Below the pieces are notes generated by a model. The model saw nothing but the letters and a program-made list of their open reading frames with translations, did not search any database and had not been told where the DNA came from. A DNA stretch of 64,000 bases, from NCBI GenBank assembly GCA_011523365.1, contig WTGY01000157.1, forward strand, positions 1-64,000, read 5' to 3'. Of this stretch, positions 50,232-60,163 are shown one piece after another. This DNA comes from Caldilineaceae bacterium. Its GTDB lineage: Bacteria; Chloroflexota; Anaerolineae; Caldilineales; Caldilineaceae. Numbering within the stretch: the stretch's first letter is position 1; every line of letters starts with the position of its first letter. The position numbers were made by a program, and so were the translations under genes.

Positions 50232-51683
50232 ATGACCGGCGACAAATGCAGGCAGTTTCCAGCGGGAGAACGACAACTCTTCCTAGATGACGACGATATC
50301 GCGAGCGTTAACGGACTGCGTCGCGTGTTCCACCAGCCGCAGAAGCGGGGCGCGGTCATCCGGCGCGAGCCCGCTCTCGGCGGCAACCCGGAGATACGGT
50401 GTGCGCCGGTGTGGGACCCGGAGGCGCGAGTGTGGAAGCTGTGGACAATCTGCATTACGCCGGAAGAGTTGCACGGCATAGCAGGATTGTCGGGCTATCA
50501 CGAGAGCCGGGACGGCCTCCACTGGTATCAGCCCATTTTGAGGGAGGCGGAGTACCTGGGAACGCGCGAGAACAATCTCGTCTACATTCCGATGGGTGAC
50601 GGATGCACGGCCGAGATTCTGGGGGCCGTCTATGACAGGAGCGACCCGGACCCGAGCCGGAGATACAAGGCATTGAGCTTCACGATGGCGCCAGAGCTGG
50701 CGATCCTGTTCGCTACTTCTCCGGACGGTATCCATTGGACGCGGGTAGAGATCCCGCCGATTGCATCGGGCGACGAGCCGAATTTTAGCTTCGATGAGGA
50801 CAGACACCTCTTTATCGCCACTGTGAAGGTCCCAGGTCCGTTCGGCCGGTCCCATGCACTGACGGTCAGCGAGGATTTTGAGAGTTGGAGCGAACCGGAG
50901 CTGGTGTTTCATGCGGACGAAGAGGATCAGGAGCAGGCGCGGCGGATTATCGCTGACCGATTGGCCGATCCGACGCTGCAGCAGCCAGTGTTCAACCACC
51001 CGGAGGAGCACGGGGTTGACGTCTACAACTTCGCCATTTCTCGTTACGAGAGCCGATACATTGGTTTTGCTTCCATGTTCTACCATACGGGGCGGGCGTG
51101 GAATGACCGCAACCATGACGGCTTTCATCACGTCCAGATGACATGCAGCCGGGACATGCGCAGCTGGCGGCGACTCGGGCAACGGGCGCCCTTTATCGGG
51201 CCGTCTCCTCTTGGGAGCGGGGCGTATGACACGATGCAGATTCTGGGACCCTCCTTTCCGGTTGTGAGGGGCGACCAACTCTGGTTCTACTATTCCGGAA
51301 TCCGGCATCGCTGGCAACCACCTAAAGTCAGTCCTGAGCGGGCGGCCATCTGTCTGGCTACCATGCGTCGAGATGGCTTTGTTTCGCTGGATGCCGATGA
51401 AGATGGCGGCGCTGTCACGACGGCGCCGTTTCGCTGGGAGGGGGAGCGGCTCTATCTAAATGCCGAGGCGGAGGCCGGGGAGGTCCGGTGCGAGCTTATC
51501 GGTTCAGAAGGTCAGCCGTTAGAAGGGTACGAGCGGGGCAATTCCATACCTCTGACGGCGGACGACGCTCGCCAGCCAGTGGCGTGGGGCGAAAAGGAGT
51601 TCATGCCCGCTGATAGTGAAAGTCCAGTGACGTTGCGAATCTGGTTACGGAAAGCGCGTCTTTACAGTTACTGGCTCGAATAG
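50232..51683 (+). CDS. Five-bladed propeller, GH32/43-like, copy 1
   Basis: A 483-residue cytosolic protein. Repeated strand motifs (GYHESRDGLHWYQP near 95, FATSPDGIHWTRVE near 160, ALTVSEDFESWSEPELVF near 205, SRDMRSWRRLG near 300) are those of a five-bladed propeller as in glycoside hydrolase families 32, 43 and 117. The last 100 residues form a beta-rich tail. No signal peptide. Hydrolase activity is not shown. A paralog follows 12 bases later, and both end in YSYWLE or FSYWLE. Confidence 0.7.
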   Translation: MTGDKCRQFPAGERQLFLDDDDIASVNGLRRVFHQPQKRGAVIRREPALGGNPEIRCAPVWDPEARVWKLWTICITPEELHGIAGLSGYHESRDGLHWYQPILREAEYLGTRENNLVYIPMGDGCTAEILGAVYDRSDPDPSRRYKALSFTMAPELAILFATSPDGIHWTRVEIPPIASGDEPNFSFDEDRHLFIATVKVPGPFGRSHALTVSEDFESWSEPELVFHADEEDQEQARRIIADRLADPTLQQPVFNHPEEHGVDVYNFAISRYESRYIGFASMFYHTGRAWNDRNHDGFHHVQMTCSRDMRSWRRLGQRAPFIGPSPLGSGAYDTMQILGPSFPVVRGDQLWFYYSGIRHRWQPPKVSPERAAICLATMRRDGFVSLDADEDGGAVTTAPFRWEGERLYLNAEAEAGEVRCELIGSEGQPLEGYERGNSIPLTADDARQPVAWGEKEFMPADSESPVTLRIWLRKARLYSYWLE

Positions 51684-51695
51684 AGGGAGAGCGAA

Positions 51696-53165
51696 ATGGC
51701 AACTGACTCGAATCGCAAGTTCGCGCGCATGGAGAGGCAGCTATTTTTCGACGACGCGGACATTGCCCGAATCGACGGCTTGGAAAGGACCCTGCACCAG
51801 CCCAATAAGAAGGGCGGGGTCATTCGTGTGGACCCACACATGGCGGTTCTTGGTTCTGACGGCGGTCCCATCTACCGGCCTCAGACGCGGACGGCGCCGG
51901 TGTGGGATGCCGAGGCGGAACTGTGGAAATTCTGGACTATCGGGGCAAAGTTGGACTGGAACCATGGGCGCTCCTCCTACCACGAGAGCCGGGATGGGTT
52001 GCACTGGTACCAGCCAACAATTGGGCAGCTGGAGTACGAGGGATCACGTGACAACAATCATGTTGCCATCCCACTGGACGAGACACGCACATCGGAAGTG
52101 CTGGGTGTGATCTATGACGCCAGCGATCCGGACCCGAACCGCCGCTTCAAGGCGATCAGCTTCATCATGGAGCCCGATCTCTCGATCATCTTTGGGGTAT
52201 CTGCGGACGGGATCGTATGGAAGAAGCATGACGCGCCGGCTATCCTGTCCGGCGATGAACCGAATTTCAGTTTTGACGCCGCAGACCACCGTTACATAGC
52301 TACTGTCAAAGTGCGGGGAAAGTGGGGTCGTTCTCACGCTGTAACCACCAGCCAGGATTTCGATCATTGGAGCGAACCGGAGCTGGTATTCCAGGCGGAT
52401 GACGAAGACCAGGAGCTGGCGCGCGAGGTGATCGCGCGGCGGCTCGCCAACCCCGCGCTGCAGCAGACGGTGGTCAACCACCCGGAAGAGCATGGGGTGG
52501 ATGTCTATAATTTCAGCATATCCCGCTACGAGAGCCGTTACATCGGGTTCGCGTCCATGTTCCACCACGTGGGACGATCGGTTGACGGCCGCAATCACGA
52601 CGGCTTCCATCATGTGCAGCTGGCCAGCAGCCGGGATATGTATACGTGGGAGCGGCAAGGCGAACGCCAGCCGTTTATCGACTCATCTCCTTTGGGGGGA
52701 GGCGCTTACGATACGCTACAGATGCTGGGGCCTTCCTCGCCGGTGCGCCGCGACGACGAGCTCTGGTTTTACTACACGGGGGTCAAGTTCCGGCGGCCTC
52801 CTGCGAAGTGGGACCCGGACTACGCGGCCATCTGTCTCGCCGTATTGCGGCGGGACGGATTTGTCTCGCTGGGTGCCGGCGAGGAGGGTGGTTCGTTGGT
52901 GACCGAGCCTTTCACATGGGAGGGGGAGCAGCTCTATGTCAACGCGGTGGCGGACAGTGGCGCGGTTACAGTTGAGCTGCTGGATGTCGACAGCCGACCT
53001 GTGCCCGGTTACGGTGCGGAGGACGCGACCAGCTCGAATGAAGACAGTGTTCGGCAAGCGGTTGTCTGGGGCGAGAATGGCCGGATGCCCGATCCCGCTA
53101 ACGGGCCGATCCGATTGCGGATCAGTCTGACGAATGCAGAGGTTTTCAGCTACTGGCTCGAGTAA
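51696..53165 (+). CDS. Five-bladed propeller, GH32/43-like, copy 2
   Basis: A 489-residue paralog of the preceding gene, similar along its whole length: RQLFFDDADIARIDGLERTLHQP at the start, YHESRDGLHWYQP near 95, NHPEEHGVDVYNFSISRYESRYIGFASMF near 265, SYWLE at the end. AGGGAGAG precedes the ATG. Divergence is spread over the protein, so the two may have split substrate range. The blocks DEPNFSFD and NHDGFHHVQ are conserved and could be active-site regions. Confidence 0.7.
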   Translation: MATDSNRKFARMERQLFFDDADIARIDGLERTLHQPNKKGGVIRVDPHMAVLGSDGGPIYRPQTRTAPVWDAEAELWKFWTIGAKLDWNHGRSSYHESRDGLHWYQPTIGQLEYEGSRDNNHVAIPLDETRTSEVLGVIYDASDPDPNRRFKAISFIMEPDLSIIFGVSADGIVWKKHDAPAILSGDEPNFSFDAADHRYIATVKVRGKWGRSHAVTTSQDFDHWSEPELVFQADDEDQELAREVIARRLANPALQQTVVNHPEEHGVDVYNFSISRYESRYIGFASMFHHVGRSVDGRNHDGFHHVQLASSRDMYTWERQGERQPFIDSSPLGGGAYDTLQMLGPSSPVRRDDELWFYYTGVKFRRPPAKWDPDYAAICLAVLRRDGFVSLGAGEEGGSLVTEPFTWEGEQLYVNAVADSGAVTVELLDVDSRPVPGYGAEDATSSNEDSVRQAVVWGENGRMPDPANGPIRLRISLTNAEVFSYWLE

Positions 53166-53267: not shown

Positions 53268-54596
53268 ATGGGTGAGACTGCGACTGCCGTAGAGAGAACC
53301 TACGCCTCGGAAACTCCGAGCTCGCGAGAGCAGTTCGAAAGGGACCGCAAGTCGATGCCGGGCGGGGCGAAGGGCGCCTATTTTTACGCACCCTACCCCA
53401 TCACCATGCAGCGGGGTGAGGGCTGCTATCTCTTTGACATTGACGAACGGAGACGGGTGGACTTTGCCAACCACCATACCGGTCAGATCCTTGGCCACAA
53501 CAACGCCGGGGTACATGCGGCGGTCGAGGCACAGCTTACGAGAGGCATCGCGCTGGGCGCGCCGACCGGTGCGGAAGGGGCGCTGGCGGAGGAGATGTGC
53601 AGTCGCGTGGCGTCGCTGGAGAAGGTCCGTTTTTGCAACTCGGGAACTGAGGCATCCTTGCACGCGATCCGGCTGGCGCGCGGGTTCAGCGGGCGTCCGA
53701 AGATTGCCAAGATGGAGGGCGGGTACCACGGCAGCCATGACCTGGTGGAGGTAAGCGTTGCGCCGCCGGTGGACAAGGCGGGCCCTGCCGACGAGCCTTA
53801 TTCGGTGCCGACGGCAGGCGGCATGTCTCCGAACGCCCCCTCAGAGGTGATCGTCCTGCCCTTCAACAATGAGGAGGCGCTGGAGCGGCTGGTCCGACGC
53901 CATCGCGACGAACTGGCCTGTGTGATTCTCGATCCCAAGACAGGTATCCTGCCGGTGCGCAAGAATTACATACAGGCTGTGCGCCGGGTGACCGAGCAGA
54001 ACGACGTGCTGCTGGTTCTCGACGAGGTGGTTGCATTTCGCGTCGCGCGCGGCGGCGCGCAGGAGCATTACGGTATCAGCCCGGATCTGACGACGTTCGG
54101 AAAGTTGGTGGGGGGCGGGTTCCCGGTGGGCGCGTTCGGCGGCCGGGCGGACATCATGGATCTGTTCGACAGCAGCGGCGAGCCGACCGGCTTCTTCCAG
54201 AGCGGCACATTCAGCGCGCATGCGGTGGTGATGGCGGCGGGTCTTGCCACATTGCAGCAGTTGACACCGAGTGCGTTCGAGCATCTGAACGGATTGGGGG
54301 AACGACTGCGTGCGGGGTTGGAGGCGCTTAGCGCACGCATCAGTACGCCGCTGCAGGCGGTGGTGCTCGGTTCTCTGTTCAGCGTCTATTTCACGGATGA
54401 GCCGCTGGTGAATTACCGAAGCCTGGCCGGCAACGACGGTGCAATGGCGCACCGCGTTTTCCTTTCTCTCCTCAACCAGGGTTATTTTCTGAGCCAGGGG
54501 CTGTCGATGAATGCGTTATCGCTGCCTATGGAGGATGAGCATATCGACGGGCTCGTGTCAGCATTCGAAAGGGCGATAGAAGAGAGCAAGCTGTAG
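53268..54596 (+). CDS. Class III aminotransferase, glutamate-1-semialdehyde-aminomutase-like
   Basis: A 442-residue PLP enzyme. It carries SRVASLEKVRFCNSGTEASLHAIRLAR (near 110-135), VLVLDEVVAFRVARGG near 245 and the Schiff-base Lys in TTFGKLVGGGFPVGAFGG near 278. The family includes HemL and omega-transaminases. HemL is unlikely because no porphyrin genes are near; a catabolic aminomutase or transaminase for an imported amino compound fits the block better. GAGGAACGG precedes the ATG. Confidence 0.88.
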   Translation: MGETATAVERTYASETPSSREQFERDRKSMPGGAKGAYFYAPYPITMQRGEGCYLFDIDERRRVDFANHHTGQILGHNNAGVHAAVEAQLTRGIALGAPTGAEGALAEEMCSRVASLEKVRFCNSGTEASLHAIRLARGFSGRPKIAKMEGGYHGSHDLVEVSVAPPVDKAGPADEPYSVPTAGGMSPNAPSEVIVLPFNNEEALERLVRRHRDELACVILDPKTGILPVRKNYIQAVRRVTEQNDVLLVLDEVVAFRVARGGAQEHYGISPDLTTFGKLVGGGFPVGAFGGRADIMDLFDSSGEPTGFFQSGTFSAHAVVMAAGLATLQQLTPSAFEHLNGLGERLRAGLEALSARISTPLQAVVLGSLFSVYFTDEPLVNYRSLAGNDGAMAHRVFLSLLNQGYFLSQGLSMNALSLPMEDEHIDGLVSAFERAIEESKL

Positions 54597-54691: not shown

Positions 54692-56212
54692 ATGTACGCT
54701 ATCGACGTAATTTCTGAATTCAGTGTCAATCCAATCCCTGAGCCGGATACGACGCTGGCGGCGCTGCTGCGTCAGACGGAGGAGCACGACACGACGTTGA
54801 CCTTGACTACATCGCGACGCGGCCTGGTCAACCAGATCAACCCGGAGGCTGTGGCTGAGACGCTCGAAATCACGGCTCAACATCCCCGTCTCCTGGCCGT
54901 GGGCACGCTCGATCCCAGGTACTTTCTGAACTGGCGGGACGATCTGAAAGCCTGCGTGGACGGGGGCTGCGTGGCGATTCGTTTCGCGCCGGGGCCGCAG
55001 AATTGGAGCCCCGAGACTCTGGTCTTCGAGCAAATGGTAGAGGCGGTCGGTGAGGCTGGACTGCCGATCATCGTTGATTTCAAAGGATCGGATCAGGCGT
55101 TGAGCTGGATCCGGAAGGTGGCGGAGGTCTGCCACCGATATGATGTACAGGTGGTCATGAATGAGGTGAGCTACGCCCATATGGGCGAGCTGATCACGGT
55201 CATGCAGGTTTACGAGAACGTGTTTGCCGCGATTCGCTGGCTGTGCCTGGCGGACGGCATTGAGGTGATGGTCGAGGCGGGGATTGGGGACAGGCTGCTC
55301 TATGGCAGCAACTCGCCCAAGTATTCGATACGGTCTCTGCGCAACCAGATTTTCATGGCGAAGATTTCGGATGAACAGAAGCAGGCGATCCTCGGGGGCA
55401 ACGCCTTACGGTTGCTCGATATGGACATAGAAGAACTGCCCGCGGATCCCCTCATGATCAAGGCAGAGGCTGATCTGCCGAATGAGCCGATTATCGACAT
55501 CCACGCCCATGTGTCCGGCTTCCACTGCGCGGAGCCGTTCAACACGCGCTTTGAGACGAATGTACCGGAGATGACTGAGCGGTGCAACATTCAGTACACA
55601 TTTGTGTCCTCTTACAACGCCATCAACTATGACATGCGCGAGGGCAACGCGGACACGCAGGCCTTTCTCGATCGTTACCCCAACCTGCGGGGCTACATCG
55701 CAATTGACCCGCGCGATCTGGCCGGATCGGTTGAGCAGATGGAGCGCTATTTTCAGGATCCCAGATTCGTGGGGGTAAAGCTTTACTGCCCCTTCGGCGG
55801 CAACATGGCGACGAAACGGATGCAGGACCTGTTGGACGAAATCGCGCGGTTTGGCCGGCCTACCAAGATTCACATGGATGAAGGCGGGTCACCTTATCCG
55901 GGTGTGCGGTCGGCGGCTGAGCGCAATCCGGACCTGGTTATCATCAAGGCCCATGGTGATGACGCTGAGGGCGCGCGTCAGGTCGTGGATCTACCAAACG
56001 TGTACTTTGAGTTCTGCAGCAGCGGCATCAACCCGGGTGTCATCCGCCGGTCGATGGACATTCTGGGGCCGGAGCGGATCTTGTTCGGCACCGACCAGCC
56101 GCTCTTTACGCCCTGGTTCGAGTACGGGGCCTATGCCGATGCGATTCAGACTCAGCGAGAGGCTGACCTGATATTCCGTGAGAACGCCAGACGTATCTTC
56201 CGCCTGGACTGA
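54692..56212 (+). CDS. Tandem-fused amidohydrolase (degenerate N-half, canonical C-half)
   Basis: A 506-residue protein made of two amidohydrolase_2-type barrels. The C-terminal half has the expected metal ligands: HAH (His271, His273), KIHMDEGG, KAHGDD and ILFGTDQPLF. The N-terminal half ends like a complete domain (LLYGSNSPKYS, then AILGGNALRLLDM near 240), but the HxH position reads VISEF and the late Asp is Asn. It is therefore likely a non-catalytic partner domain. The ATG at 54692 follows AAGGACC; an in-frame start at 54653 is less likely. The family hydrolyses or decarboxylates C-N or C-C bonds, including lactones. Confidence 0.82.
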   Translation: MYAIDVISEFSVNPIPEPDTTLAALLRQTEEHDTTLTLTTSRRGLVNQINPEAVAETLEITAQHPRLLAVGTLDPRYFLNWRDDLKACVDGGCVAIRFAPGPQNWSPETLVFEQMVEAVGEAGLPIIVDFKGSDQALSWIRKVAEVCHRYDVQVVMNEVSYAHMGELITVMQVYENVFAAIRWLCLADGIEVMVEAGIGDRLLYGSNSPKYSIRSLRNQIFMAKISDEQKQAILGGNALRLLDMDIEELPADPLMIKAEADLPNEPIIDIHAHVSGFHCAEPFNTRFETNVPEMTERCNIQYTFVSSYNAINYDMREGNADTQAFLDRYPNLRGYIAIDPRDLAGSVEQMERYFQDPRFVGVKLYCPFGGNMATKRMQDLLDEIARFGRPTKIHMDEGGSPYPGVRSAAERNPDLVIIKAHGDDAEGARQVVDLPNVYFEFCSSGINPGVIRRSMDILGPERILFGTDQPLFTPWFEYGAYADAIQTQREADLIFRENARRIFRLD

Positions 56213-56320: not shown

Positions 56321-57559
56321 ATGGCCATTGCAATCGAACGCAACTCGCCGCCGGTGCGGAGCGGATCGTTCGGGCCCCAGTGGGACATGGGCGAGGAGGA
56401 GATTAACGAACTGATCGAGGTGATCCGCTCCGGGAAGCTGAACCGGCTGAGCGGCACCAAGGTCGACCAGTTTGAGCGGGACTTCGCGGAGATGAACGGG
56501 GTCAAGTATGCGCAGGCGGTTACGTCGGGGACGGCGGCGGTGCATACGGCGGTCGGCACAATTGACCCCAATCCGGGCGATGAGATCATCACCACTAGCA
56601 TCACGGATATGGGTACGATTATCGGCATTCTTTACCAGAACGCGGTGCCGGTATTCGCGGATATCGATCCCCGGACGGGCAATCTCGACATTGCGGATGT
56701 CGAAGCCAAGATCACGGAGCGCACCAAGGCGATCATCGTGGTGCACCTGTTTGGCAATCCTGCGCCGATGGAGGCCTATGTTGAACTGGCGCGAAAGTAT
56801 AACCTCTATCTGATCGAGGACTGCGCGCAGGCTCAACTGGCCGAGTATGGGGGGCGGCCGGTCGGGACGTGGGGCGACTTCGGCTGTTACAGTTTTGGCG
56901 GCAAGCACATGACCACGGGCGACGGCGGTATGGTGATCAGCAACCGGGGCGATCTGGCCGAACGGCTGAAATGGTTCGCAGACAAGGGCAATCCGCGCAG
57001 CCCGATCTACGAGCACTACTATCTGGCACCCAACTATCGCATGACCGACCTTCAGGGCGCGGTGGGGATCGCACAGCTGAAGAAGGTGACGGACGCGGTG
57101 CGGCACAAGCAGTGGGTCGCCAACCATCTGAACGAGGTCGTCGACGGAGAGGCAGGTCTTTCATTGCAGCCGGTCCTGCCGGAGGCTACGCATTCGTACT
57201 GGGTCTACGGTTTCCATGTGGACGCGGCGGTACTGGGGGCGACGGCAGAACAGTTTGCGGCGGCATTGCAGGCGGAGGGCGTGCCGGCCAACTCGCCTTA
57301 CATGGCGTACCCGGTTTACAAGTACCCGGTGATGGCGCAGCAGCGCGCATATGGGACGGCTGACTTCTCCTATGCGGGCGAGAAGGCGGCTGCCATGGAC
57401 TATGGCTCGATGTCGCTACCGGGCGGGGAGCGTTTCCTGGAGACTACGGTGGTGATGCCGATGAGCCCCTCTTACACCGACAAGGACGTAGACGATTTCA
57501 GCACGGCGATCAAGAAGGTCGGCGACTACTACCGCTCGAAACTGTCGAGCCAGGGCTAA
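56321..57559 (+). CDS. DegT/DnrJ/EryC1/StrS-type PLP aminotransferase
   Basis: A 412-residue sugar-aminotransferase-family protein. Landmarks: LSGTKVDQFERDFAEMNGVKYAQAVTSGTAAVH (40-75), LIEDCAQAQLAEYGG near 168 and the Schiff-base Lys in CYSFGGKHMTTGDGGMV near 195. The family makes or uses amino sugars and related amino-cyclitols. AAGGAGAA precedes the ATG. Only five bases separate it from the next gene, so the two are surely co-transcribed. Confidence 0.9.
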   Translation: MAIAIERNSPPVRSGSFGPQWDMGEEEINELIEVIRSGKLNRLSGTKVDQFERDFAEMNGVKYAQAVTSGTAAVHTAVGTIDPNPGDEIITTSITDMGTIIGILYQNAVPVFADIDPRTGNLDIADVEAKITERTKAIIVVHLFGNPAPMEAYVELARKYNLYLIEDCAQAQLAEYGGRPVGTWGDFGCYSFGGKHMTTGDGGMVISNRGDLAERLKWFADKGNPRSPIYEHYYLAPNYRMTDLQGAVGIAQLKKVTDAVRHKQWVANHLNEVVDGEAGLSLQPVLPEATHSYWVYGFHVDAAVLGATAEQFAAALQAEGVPANSPYMAYPVYKYPVMAQQRAYGTADFSYAGEKAAAMDYGSMSLPGGERFLETTVVMPMSPSYTDKDVDDFSTAIKKVGDYYRSKLSSQG

Positions 57560-57564
57560 GAGAT

Positions 57565-58329
57565 ATGTCTATTCAGTTTACGTTCCGGCCGCGGGTGCCC
57601 GTTTTTGACGCCAATGTGCGGGTTGGCGATCTTCACTATCAGCCATCTCCATGCCGCAACCGGGAACAGTTGCTGGCGGAGATGGACCGGCATGGGGTTG
57701 AGAGGGCGCTGATCTACCACGCGCAGACGGAAGAGGTCAGCCCTCTAGATGGAAATGGATTTCTGGAAGAGTGGCTGGACAGCAGCAGGCTCTTTCCCCA
57801 GTGGTCTGTCACGCCTACGCCCGACTCCCTGGCTCAGGTGCAGGGATTGCACGAGCAGGGGCGCGTGCACAGTGTTCGACTGCACAATGCGCGTAAGGTT
57901 GGGCTGCCCTTCAGGCCGTGGGCATGCGGGACCATGCTCTCGTGGCTGAGCGAGAACCGGATCCCGTTGTGGATTCCGCTGCCCGATGCCGATGCGGACG
58001 AGCTGGCGATGACGCTGAGCGCCTTTCCGGAGCTGGTCACGGTACTGGTGGGCGCTCATTACAGCCACGCGTTGTGGGTGCGACCGCTGATGACAGCCGT
58101 GCCCAACGCGTACCTGGAGCTGAGCCGGATTGAGCCGCTAGGGGAGGTGGAGGCGCTGTGCGAAGAGTATGGGGCAGAGCGGTTTGTATACGGCTCGTGG
58201 TATGACCGCTTGGCGATGGGGACGATGCTCTTCTACCTTCACCATACGGACATCAGCGAGTCGGAGCTGGAACTGATCTGCGCGGGGAATCTGCTACGCA
58301 TTCTGCAGGGAGAGGGTCGACATGATTGA
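57565..58329 (+). CDS. Amidohydrolase-fold protein lacking metal ligands
   Basis: A 254-residue protein with the strand order of the amidohydrolase_2 family: VPVFDANVRVG, RALIYHAQ, VHSVRLHN, VTVLVGAHYSHA, FVYGSWYDR, ICAGNLLRIL. Where relatives have His-x-His it has Asp-Ala-Asn, and where they have the late metal Asp (GSD or GTD) it has Trp. It is probably a non-catalytic subunit. It overlaps the next gene, a canonical family member, by eight bases, so the pair is likely made together and may form a heteromer. Confidence 0.75.
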   Translation: MSIQFTFRPRVPVFDANVRVGDLHYQPSPCRNREQLLAEMDRHGVERALIYHAQTEEVSPLDGNGFLEEWLDSSRLFPQWSVTPTPDSLAQVQGLHEQGRVHSVRLHNARKVGLPFRPWACGTMLSWLSENRIPLWIPLPDADADELAMTLSAFPELVTVLVGAHYSHALWVRPLMTAVPNAYLELSRIEPLGEVEALCEEYGAERFVYGSWYDRLAMGTMLFYLHHTDISESELELICAGNLLRILQGEGRHD

Positions 58330-59071
58330 AGAACAGAGAGTGATCGACTTTCACGGCCATACCGGCCGCTTAGACCTTTACAATGGGGTCGACGATCCCG
58401 ATCTAATCCTGCGTGCAATGGATAAGGTTGGGATCGATGTCTCTTGCGTTTTCAACATATTCCACCCAGACGGCACAACCGGGAATGACATCACGGCCCG
58501 GTTTGTGGCGGAGCATCCGGACCGCTTTGTCGGGTTCGCGTACGTGTCGCCGATGATGGCGGAAGGGATGGTTGACGAACTGACGCGGGCGATCGATGAG
58601 CTGGGGCTGGTGGCGATCAAGCTCTACCCGCCGTATACGGAGTGGGACCTGAACGAACCGATCTGGCATCCAATATACGAGTTTGCGAATGAGCGCGGCC
58701 TGGCGATCATCTTTCACACGGGTTCGGACCCGCATTCACACCCCGGACTGCTTGCAGACTGTGCGGCCAAGTTTCCCAACGCCAATTTCGTATCAGGCCA
58801 CGCGGGAAACGTCGCCGAGCCGCGGGCGGCGGCGATCAGGGCGGCGCAAGAGTATCCCAACATCTATCTGGAGACGTGCTCGACCTTTCGGACGCCGGGT
58901 GTCATCGAGCAGCTGGTGAACGAGGCCGGAGCTGACCGGGTCCTGTTCGGCTCGGACATTGCGCTGATGGATTCGCGGCCGCAGTTGGGCAAGATCATAA
59001 CGGCCGATATTTCCGACGAGGCCAAGCGGCTGGTGTGCGGCGGGAATGCGGCGCGGCTGCTGGGGATATGA
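58322..59071 (+). CDS. Amidohydrolase_2-family hydrolase
   Basis: A 249-residue metal-dependent hydrolase with intact ligands: VIDFHGH near residue 8, AIIFHTGSDPHSHPG near 125, FVSGHAGN near 155 and RVLFGSDIAL near 205. Family members include ACMSD-type decarboxylases and lactone hydrolases (LigI-like). GGGAGAGG lies before the ATG inside the upstream gene. The eight-base overlap with the degenerate paralog indicates coupled translation. Confidence 0.87.
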   Translation: MIEEQRVIDFHGHTGRLDLYNGVDDPDLILRAMDKVGIDVSCVFNIFHPDGTTGNDITARFVAEHPDRFVGFAYVSPMMAEGMVDELTRAIDELGLVAIKLYPPYTEWDLNEPIWHPIYEFANERGLAIIFHTGSDPHSHPGLLADCAAKFPNANFVSGHAGNVAEPRAAAIRAAQEYPNIYLETCSTFRTPGVIEQLVNEAGADRVLFGSDIALMDSRPQLGKIITADISDEAKRLVCGGNAARLLGI

Positions 59072-59179: not shown

Positions 59180-60163
59180 ATGGACTACAGTGAATCCGAT
59201 CGCGAGTTCTGGGAAGAGGAGCTGGCGGACTTCGTCCCGCAAAGAGTTTTTGATGCCCATTGCCATCTGTTCGATCCGGCAGATATGCGGTCGGACGCGC
59301 CGGTGCCGACACGATCGTATGCCGACCTGGAGACGCTGCGGGCCTGGGGGCGTCTCATGTTTCCGGGCCGCCAGATGAACTTTCTTCTGCTGGGGATGCC
59401 CAAGGTCGGCATTGACGTGGGAAAACATACGGCAATGCTTGCCGGGCAGGTCGCCCTGGACCCCTCTTCACGAGCCAATCGACTGGTCACACCATCCTGT
59501 GACATCAAATGCGTTGAGAAGGATGTCGAGCGCACGGGCTTCATCGGATTGAAGCCCTATCGGGTCTTTTCCTCGACCGGAGATACGGACTACTGCAGGA
59601 TTCACGAGTTTCTGACGCACGAACAGATGGAGCTTGCCAACGACCGCGGTCTGTGGGTCACGATGCATCTGTCGCGGCCGGGCGGTTGCGCGGATGAGGC
59701 GAACCTGGCAGACCTGGAAGAGTACACGACGCGCCGGTATCCCCGGATCAAGTGGATCCTCGCCCACTGCGCGCGCAGCTTTACCTACTGGCCGATTCGG
59801 GAGGCGATTGATCGCTTGCGCGACATGCCAAATATTTGGTACGATCTGTCGGCGGTTACGACCATGCCTCCCTTTTTGACGTTGTTCCGAGAGGAAGATC
59901 TGAAGCGGATCTTCTACGGTTCGGATGGTGTCGATTCAGCTTTCTTTCACGGCAAATATGTTCCATTCGGGCGATACTGGTATCAGGTGGAGCCGAATGA
60001 AGCACATTTCAGCTTTGCGCACACGGACGCTCGTCCGGTTCTCTGCATATACGAACAGATAATGGCCATGAAACAGGCGGCCGAGATCGCCGGACTGTCC
60101 AAGGACGACATTGAGGGCATCTTCTGGCGCAATGCCATCGAGGCGCTTCAGATCGATTTGTAG
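59180..60163 (+). CDS. Amidohydrolase_2-family hydrolase
   Basis: A 327-residue member with intact ligands: VFDAHCHLFDP near residue 20, LWVTMHLSR near 160, KWILAHCARSF near 195 and RIFYGSDGVDS near 250. GGGAGG (59167-59172) is seven bases before the ATG at 59180; a GTG at 59165 is less well placed. It is longer than the 58322 protein and not its close relative. It could be a decarboxylase or hydrolase acting later in the same pathway. Confidence 0.87.
   Translation: MDYSESDREFWEEELADFVPQRVFDAHCHLFDPADMRSDAPVPTRSYADLETLRAWGRLMFPGRQMNFLLLGMPKVGIDVGKHTAMLAGQVALDPSSRANRLVTPSCDIKCVEKDVERTGFIGLKPYRVFSSTGDTDYCRIHEFLTHEQMELANDRGLWVTMHLSRPGGCADEANLADLEEYTTRRYPRIKWILAHCARSFTYWPIREAIDRLRDMPNIWYDLSAVTTMPPFLTLFREEDLKRIFYGSDGVDSAFFHGKYVPFGRYWYQVEPNEAHFSFAHTDARPVLCIYEQIMAMKQAAEIAGLSKDDIEGIFWRNAIEALQIDL

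Follow-up and report, generated by a model that had tools for sequence, protein, structure and literature searches.

Two overlapping genes in a 64,000-nucleotide stretch of Caldilineaceae DNA (the window) very probably encode, judging from sequence, the two subunits of a single obligate pseudoenzyme-enzyme heteromer of the prozyme kind. The upstream gene (positions 57565 to 58329, forward strand) codes for an inactive Amidohydro_2-type subunit of 254 amino acids, recognized from its open reading frame, ligand columns, AlphaFold model, Foldseek matches, and dN/dS. The downstream gene (58322 to 59071, forward strand) codes for a partner of the active type (249 amino acids; open reading frame, Pfam, and ligand columns). 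Both sets of positions and the 8-bp overlap between the open reading frames agreed with the first-pass annotation. In a profile-guided alignment, the 57565 protein retained none of the five metal ligands (0/5): the HxH motif was replaced by NxR, the β5 His by Pro, the β6 His by Gly, and the β8 Asp by Trp. In contrast, the 58322 protein had all five, together with a Lys after β4 (H11, H13, K100, H132, H160, and D212). The first-pass description of a barrel without HxH and with Trp for the late Asp, next to a canonical neighbor, was thus confirmed. Against PF04909, the 58322 protein scored 132.8 bits (E = 2.7e-38), above the curated Pfam cut-off of 26.4, whereas the 57565 protein remained below it (13.0 bits, E = 0.084) and owes its place in Amidohydro_2 to its fold and profile. 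No NCBIfam model naming either gene was found.

The AlphaFold model of the 57565 protein (pLDDT 94.3, pTM 0.92) had amidohydrolases as its best Foldseek matches (prob 1.00), and the predicted amidohydrolase TIM-barrel fold is intact. A PDB sequence search with the inactive protein alone returned nothing but noise and was discarded, while a profile search retrieved 3IRS/3K4W. This is the closest solved chain to the profile of the inactive subunits (E = 1.1e-19) and also the top Foldseek match of the inactive subunit. 3IRS/3K4W (Bordetella bronchiseptica BB4693) is an uncharacterized TIM barrel that is equally close to the profile of the active partners. Its β5 His and β8 Asp positions appear to be lost too in the profile alignment, and BB4693 may itself be a related pseudoenzyme or else serve as a template.

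The same combination is present on one chain in a fused gene of the window (54692 to 56212, forward strand). Its inactive N-terminal domain (54692 to 55423, with the domain limit taken from a homologue match) carries I, E, D, E, and N at the ligand positions in the profile-guided alignment and hence none of the five ligands. The C-terminal domain (55469 to 56212, stop codon included, with the start likewise from a homologue match) is of the active type and has all five, as assigned from Pfam, ligand columns, and a two-domain AlphaFold model. For the fusion of 506 residues, modeled with 16 diverse fusions, mean pLDDT was 90.5 and pTM was 0.91; in this model the two barrels appear confidently placed relative to each other, the linker alone making contact likely. 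The two inactive domains of the window share 15% sequence identity. An earlier reading of split pair and fusion as one repeated theme was therefore upheld in part: both belong to the same inactive and the same active clade (see below), but they are old separate branches rather than a recent repeat. Of the two, the fused gene would be the older branch within this enzyme family.

A DegT/DnrJ/EryC1-type aminotransferase gene (56321 to 57559, forward strand; open reading frame and Pfam) lies between the fused and the split system. Since its stop is followed after 5 bases by the start of the 57565 gene, which in turn overlaps the 58322 gene by 8 bp, the three genes form one apparent operon. Further genes on the forward strand are a class-III aminotransferase 5' of the fusion (53268 to 54596), which according to Pfam and family models is glutamate-1-semialdehyde aminomutase-like but below the family cut-off, and a third, longer Amidohydro_2 protein (59180 to 60163), which has all ligands, falls outside the paired clade, and lacks an inactive partner. 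In other genera, too, genes for two paralogous proteins of ∼485 residues, a DegT aminotransferase, and an ABC importer are linked to the fusion, whereas the split pair occurs there without these genes. So far as gene order tells, the window's genus has united the two systems at one locus. The ∼485-residue paralogues of the window are adjacent (50232 to 51683 and 51696 to 53165) and have no Pfam or NCBIfam match; their relatives in other genera of the family (∼34 to 36% identity) adjoin the fused gene. Around other pairs, the commonest gene families were DegT aminotransferases, peptide- or sugar-type ABC importers, GFO/IDH/MocA oxidoreductases, and DHDPS-like aldolases. The recurrence near the pairs of aminotransferases, DHDPS-type aldolases, GFO/IDH/MocA oxidoreductases, and peptide-type importers suggests that a small amino- or keto-compound is imported and catabolized. 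Naming a pathway from the DegT and class-III aminotransferase neighbors was rejected, because the context varies among relatives.

Within the window's genus, the inactive gene was present in 16 of 16 genomes (79 to 97% identical), as was the fusion gene. Median pairwise dN/dS was 0.07 for the inactive gene versus 0.053 for its active partner, and 0.059 versus 0.026 for the inactive and active halves of the fusion. The inactive gene is thus kept by purifying selection and is not decaying.

Relatives of the inactive gene were collected by their own similarity, without using the neighboring gene as a criterion. Sources were the window's class, MAGs including Spirochaetia, Anaerolineales, Omnitrophota, and Phycisphaeraceae, and 400 Chloroflexota plus 294 Planctomycetota genomes; loci from Omnitrophota, Spirochaetia, and an unclassified MAG were followed as well. 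Genomes were mostly MAGs, and the loci read were the better-scoring matches. Weaker Chloroflexota and Planctomycetota matches, which were examined in part, took in ordinary Amidohydro_2 proteins (e.g., L216 and L220), so that match counts of these two phylum searches do not equal the prevalence of the pair. Among 121 inactive copies, some of them close orthologues within the genus of the window (in the first set, 34 copies were <80% identical to each other), 114 were fused or adjacent to an active partner: 34 were fused, 58 were arranged inactive-then-active, and 22 active-then-inactive. Most split pairs overlapped by 4 or 8 bp. The remaining 7 copies were unlinked; 2 of them were cut by contig ends, 4 belonged to one genus (family f65), and 1 was an orphan. 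In the f65 genus, an unlinked active gene was found in all 5 genomes checked (82 to 100% identical between them). Where it was placed in the tree (two genomes), it was sister to the active gene of a linked pair, and the lone inactive gene mirrored this placement as sister to the inactive gene of that same pair. The linkage across several phyla, in split as well as in fused form, argues for the obligate inactive/active pairing that the first-pass annotation had proposed from the window. Inactive copies were not regularly found alone; the exceptions seen were a single orphan and the genus whose partners are unlinked. The proposed order, inactive first, holds for both systems of the window but not in general: a whole subclade is active-first, which ruled out a fixed order.

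Several loci deviated from the simple pair. The orphan inactive gene lies on a Planctomycetota contig (L265:3935-4675), where it is followed by a heparinase II/III-like gene. Two members of the inactive clade with two ligands left (HYRPHG; L237:2094-2873 and L241:8370-8999) have no adjacent active gene and fall near the other lone inactive gene of the same genus. Triplets were observed in the order active-active-inactive at three loci of genus g108 (L208:4162-7046, L209:2496-5152, and L240:3534-6979) and in the order active-inactive-active in genome G063 (L133:7380-9794). In such triplets, one inactive subunit may serve two active ones.

In the 34- and 31-row alignments, inactive domains had 0 or 1 of the five ligands, whereas their active partners had 5/5 plus the invariant Lys, and the same pattern was seen in 28 more Chloroflexota pairs and 19 Planctomycetota pairs. 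A 57-row alignment (A4) mixing fused and split proteins was discarded, as MAFFT had set split inactive domains on the active half. HxH, Lys, His, His, and Asp were invariant in 62 active domains. In the inactive domains, Asn recurred at the first His position (45/60) and Arg at the β4 Lys position (50/61), indicating that the old pocket keeps some of its character; the other ligand positions were highly variable among 61 domains. Residues of the barrel scaffold were conserved in both kinds of domain. We found no invariant residue specific to the pseudoenzymes that would mark a catalytic role in trans in the alignments of inactive domains, and no invariant Arg of the inactive subunit in the β6-α6 region in alignment A1.

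In a tree of 61 inactive, 62 active, and other Amidohydro_2 domains, all inactive domains formed one clade (FastTree support 0.995). The active partners formed another, sister-like clade (0.949), which included a second active copy beside one pair, and both clades were distinct from other Amidohydro_2 proteins. In control trees, the active-site columns were removed together with 2 positions on either side. The inactive clade was unchanged under maximum likelihood (IQ-TREE) and was joined by two outsiders in FastTree. From the active clade, the active-first subclade dropped out in FastTree, while in IQ-TREE 2 members were lost and 3 outsiders joined. After addition of Planctomycetota and further Chloroflexota sequences, the inactive clade was recovered with a support of 0.978 and included three members with 2/5 ligands. 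All inactive partners thus share ancestry, and the active partners nearly all do. Patristic distances of 58 pairs were correlated between the two sides of the tree (r = 0.77), a value attained by none of 5,000 re-pairings of partners within genomes. These results indicated that the two partners diversified jointly, and that in many cases they did so repeatedly within one genome.

Two other accounts of how the inactive proteins arose do not fit these data. The presence of homologous neighbors, one of them degenerate, is what recent local inactivation would leave, i.e., a duplicate in decay next to the functional gene it came from; the low dN/dS, the conservation in every congener, and an ancient inactive clade common to several phyla refute this reading. 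Independent inactivation of duplicated neighbors on repeated occasions would account for the low identity between the inactive domains of the window and for ligands being replaced by different residues. However, inactive domains group together with or without the active-site columns, also after Planctomycetota were added, and we rejected repeated inactivation as very improbable, although support for the active clade drops once those columns are taken out.

Homodimers are the usual state in the Amidohydro_2 fold family. In the proposed mechanism, which is the most economical one, an ancestral homodimer would have become a heterodimer; catalysis would have stayed with one copy, leaving the second free to act as its partner. 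Based on the fusion model and the genetic linkage, the inactive and active halves would dock as a heterodimer that replaces the usual homodimer. With less certainty than docking, the inactive half may also activate or complete the active half, neither working alone. Candidate roles of the inactive half are that of a stabilizer, of a pocket wall supplying a residue or loop, as a neighboring subunit does in ACMSD, or of a regulator. In a broader form, which we consider about equally apt to hold or to fail, the pairs would constitute a widespread bacterial class of heterodimeric metal-dependent hydrolases or decarboxylases. Here, an ancient inactive barrel would permanently replace half of the ancestral homodimer, reshape the active pocket in trans, diversify with it into many specificities (several pairs per genome), and undergo repeated fusion.

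A somewhat unlikely alternative is that the inactive protein acts as a ligand sensor or allosteric regulator, its vestigial pocket binding a metabolite and switching the active partner, rather than as a constitutive structural subunit. The recurrent Asn and Arg show that the old pocket is non-random, and its residues vary by subclade (PGW in the clade of the window), as different ligands would predict; yet the remaining ligand positions are highly variable, and a structural role explains fusion and co-diversification equally well. That the two proteins are independent enzymes of one pathway, the apparently inactive one having a metal-free activity and not binding its neighbor, would agree with its strong constraint and intact fold. 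We nevertheless regard this as improbable, since near-universal adjacency, two gene orders, repeated fusions, occurrence in several phyla, and partner trees that match within genomes are rarely combined in such enzymes, and the alignments show no obvious alternative set of conserved catalytic residues. A heteromer of inactive and active subunits remains the preferred reading.

Known systems resemble such a heteromer in part. ACMSD, a relative of the active partner with a solved structure, is dimeric, and each active site depends on Arg239 from the neighboring subunit (PMC11650718). It has the same fold and the same HxH/H/H/D ligand set as the active partner, which is set apart from it by the invariant Lys after β4. 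Moreover, ACMSD is a homodimer of identical, active subunits of ∼335 residues, while one barrel of the pair is inactive and both have ∼250 residues. In trypanosomatid prozymes (AdoMetDC-prozyme and DHS-DHSp), an inactive paralogue complexes with and activates its active relative (PMC5201418, PMC3663545). As there, the inactive partner of the pair is paralogous to the active one, but the pair is known from sequence, and activation is a proposal. Prozymes have unrelated folds and are eukaryotic and lineage specific, whereas the pair is bacterial, occurs in several phyla, and is usually operonic or fused. The pseudo-dihydroorotase (pDHO) of Pseudomonas aspartate transcarbamoylase is an inactive dihydroorotase homologue required for the activity of its partner (PMC7053772). 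This partner, ATCase, is not homologous to pDHO, whereas the inactive and active subunits of the pair are homologous to each other. We found no published description of an inactive amidohydrolase subunit or of such a pair in the open-access literature, a weak negative given this scope.

Pseudoenzyme partners are mostly known as scattered, lineage-specific eukaryotic cases. In contrast, the pair family is ancient, bacterial, and spread over multiple phyla. It comprises dozens of diverged pairs, occurs in either gene order as well as in naturally fused form, and thus offers a natural experiment on how an inactive subunit keeps and tunes an active one. Because the inactive subunit falls below the Pfam threshold and neither gene is named by NCBIfam, active genes screened alone may have seemed inactive for want of their partner.

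Two other kinds of Amidohydro_2 gene were noted in the genome of the window. One gene (contig C10, 1444-2202; L026) belongs, together with L218 and L224, to a different degenerate family forming its own clade, which has E-x-Y for HxH, both later His residues retained, and Asn for the last Asp; no partner was found next to these genes. Contigs C118, C137, and C148 (L004, L006, L007, L011, L012, and L016) carry tandem Amidohydro_2 genes of 370 to 390 residues. Nearly all of these have the pattern D-x-H ... H ... E ... D, the first His being replaced by Asn in one copy. They represent another kind of tandem, in which, as far as their residues indicate, both copies are apparently active.
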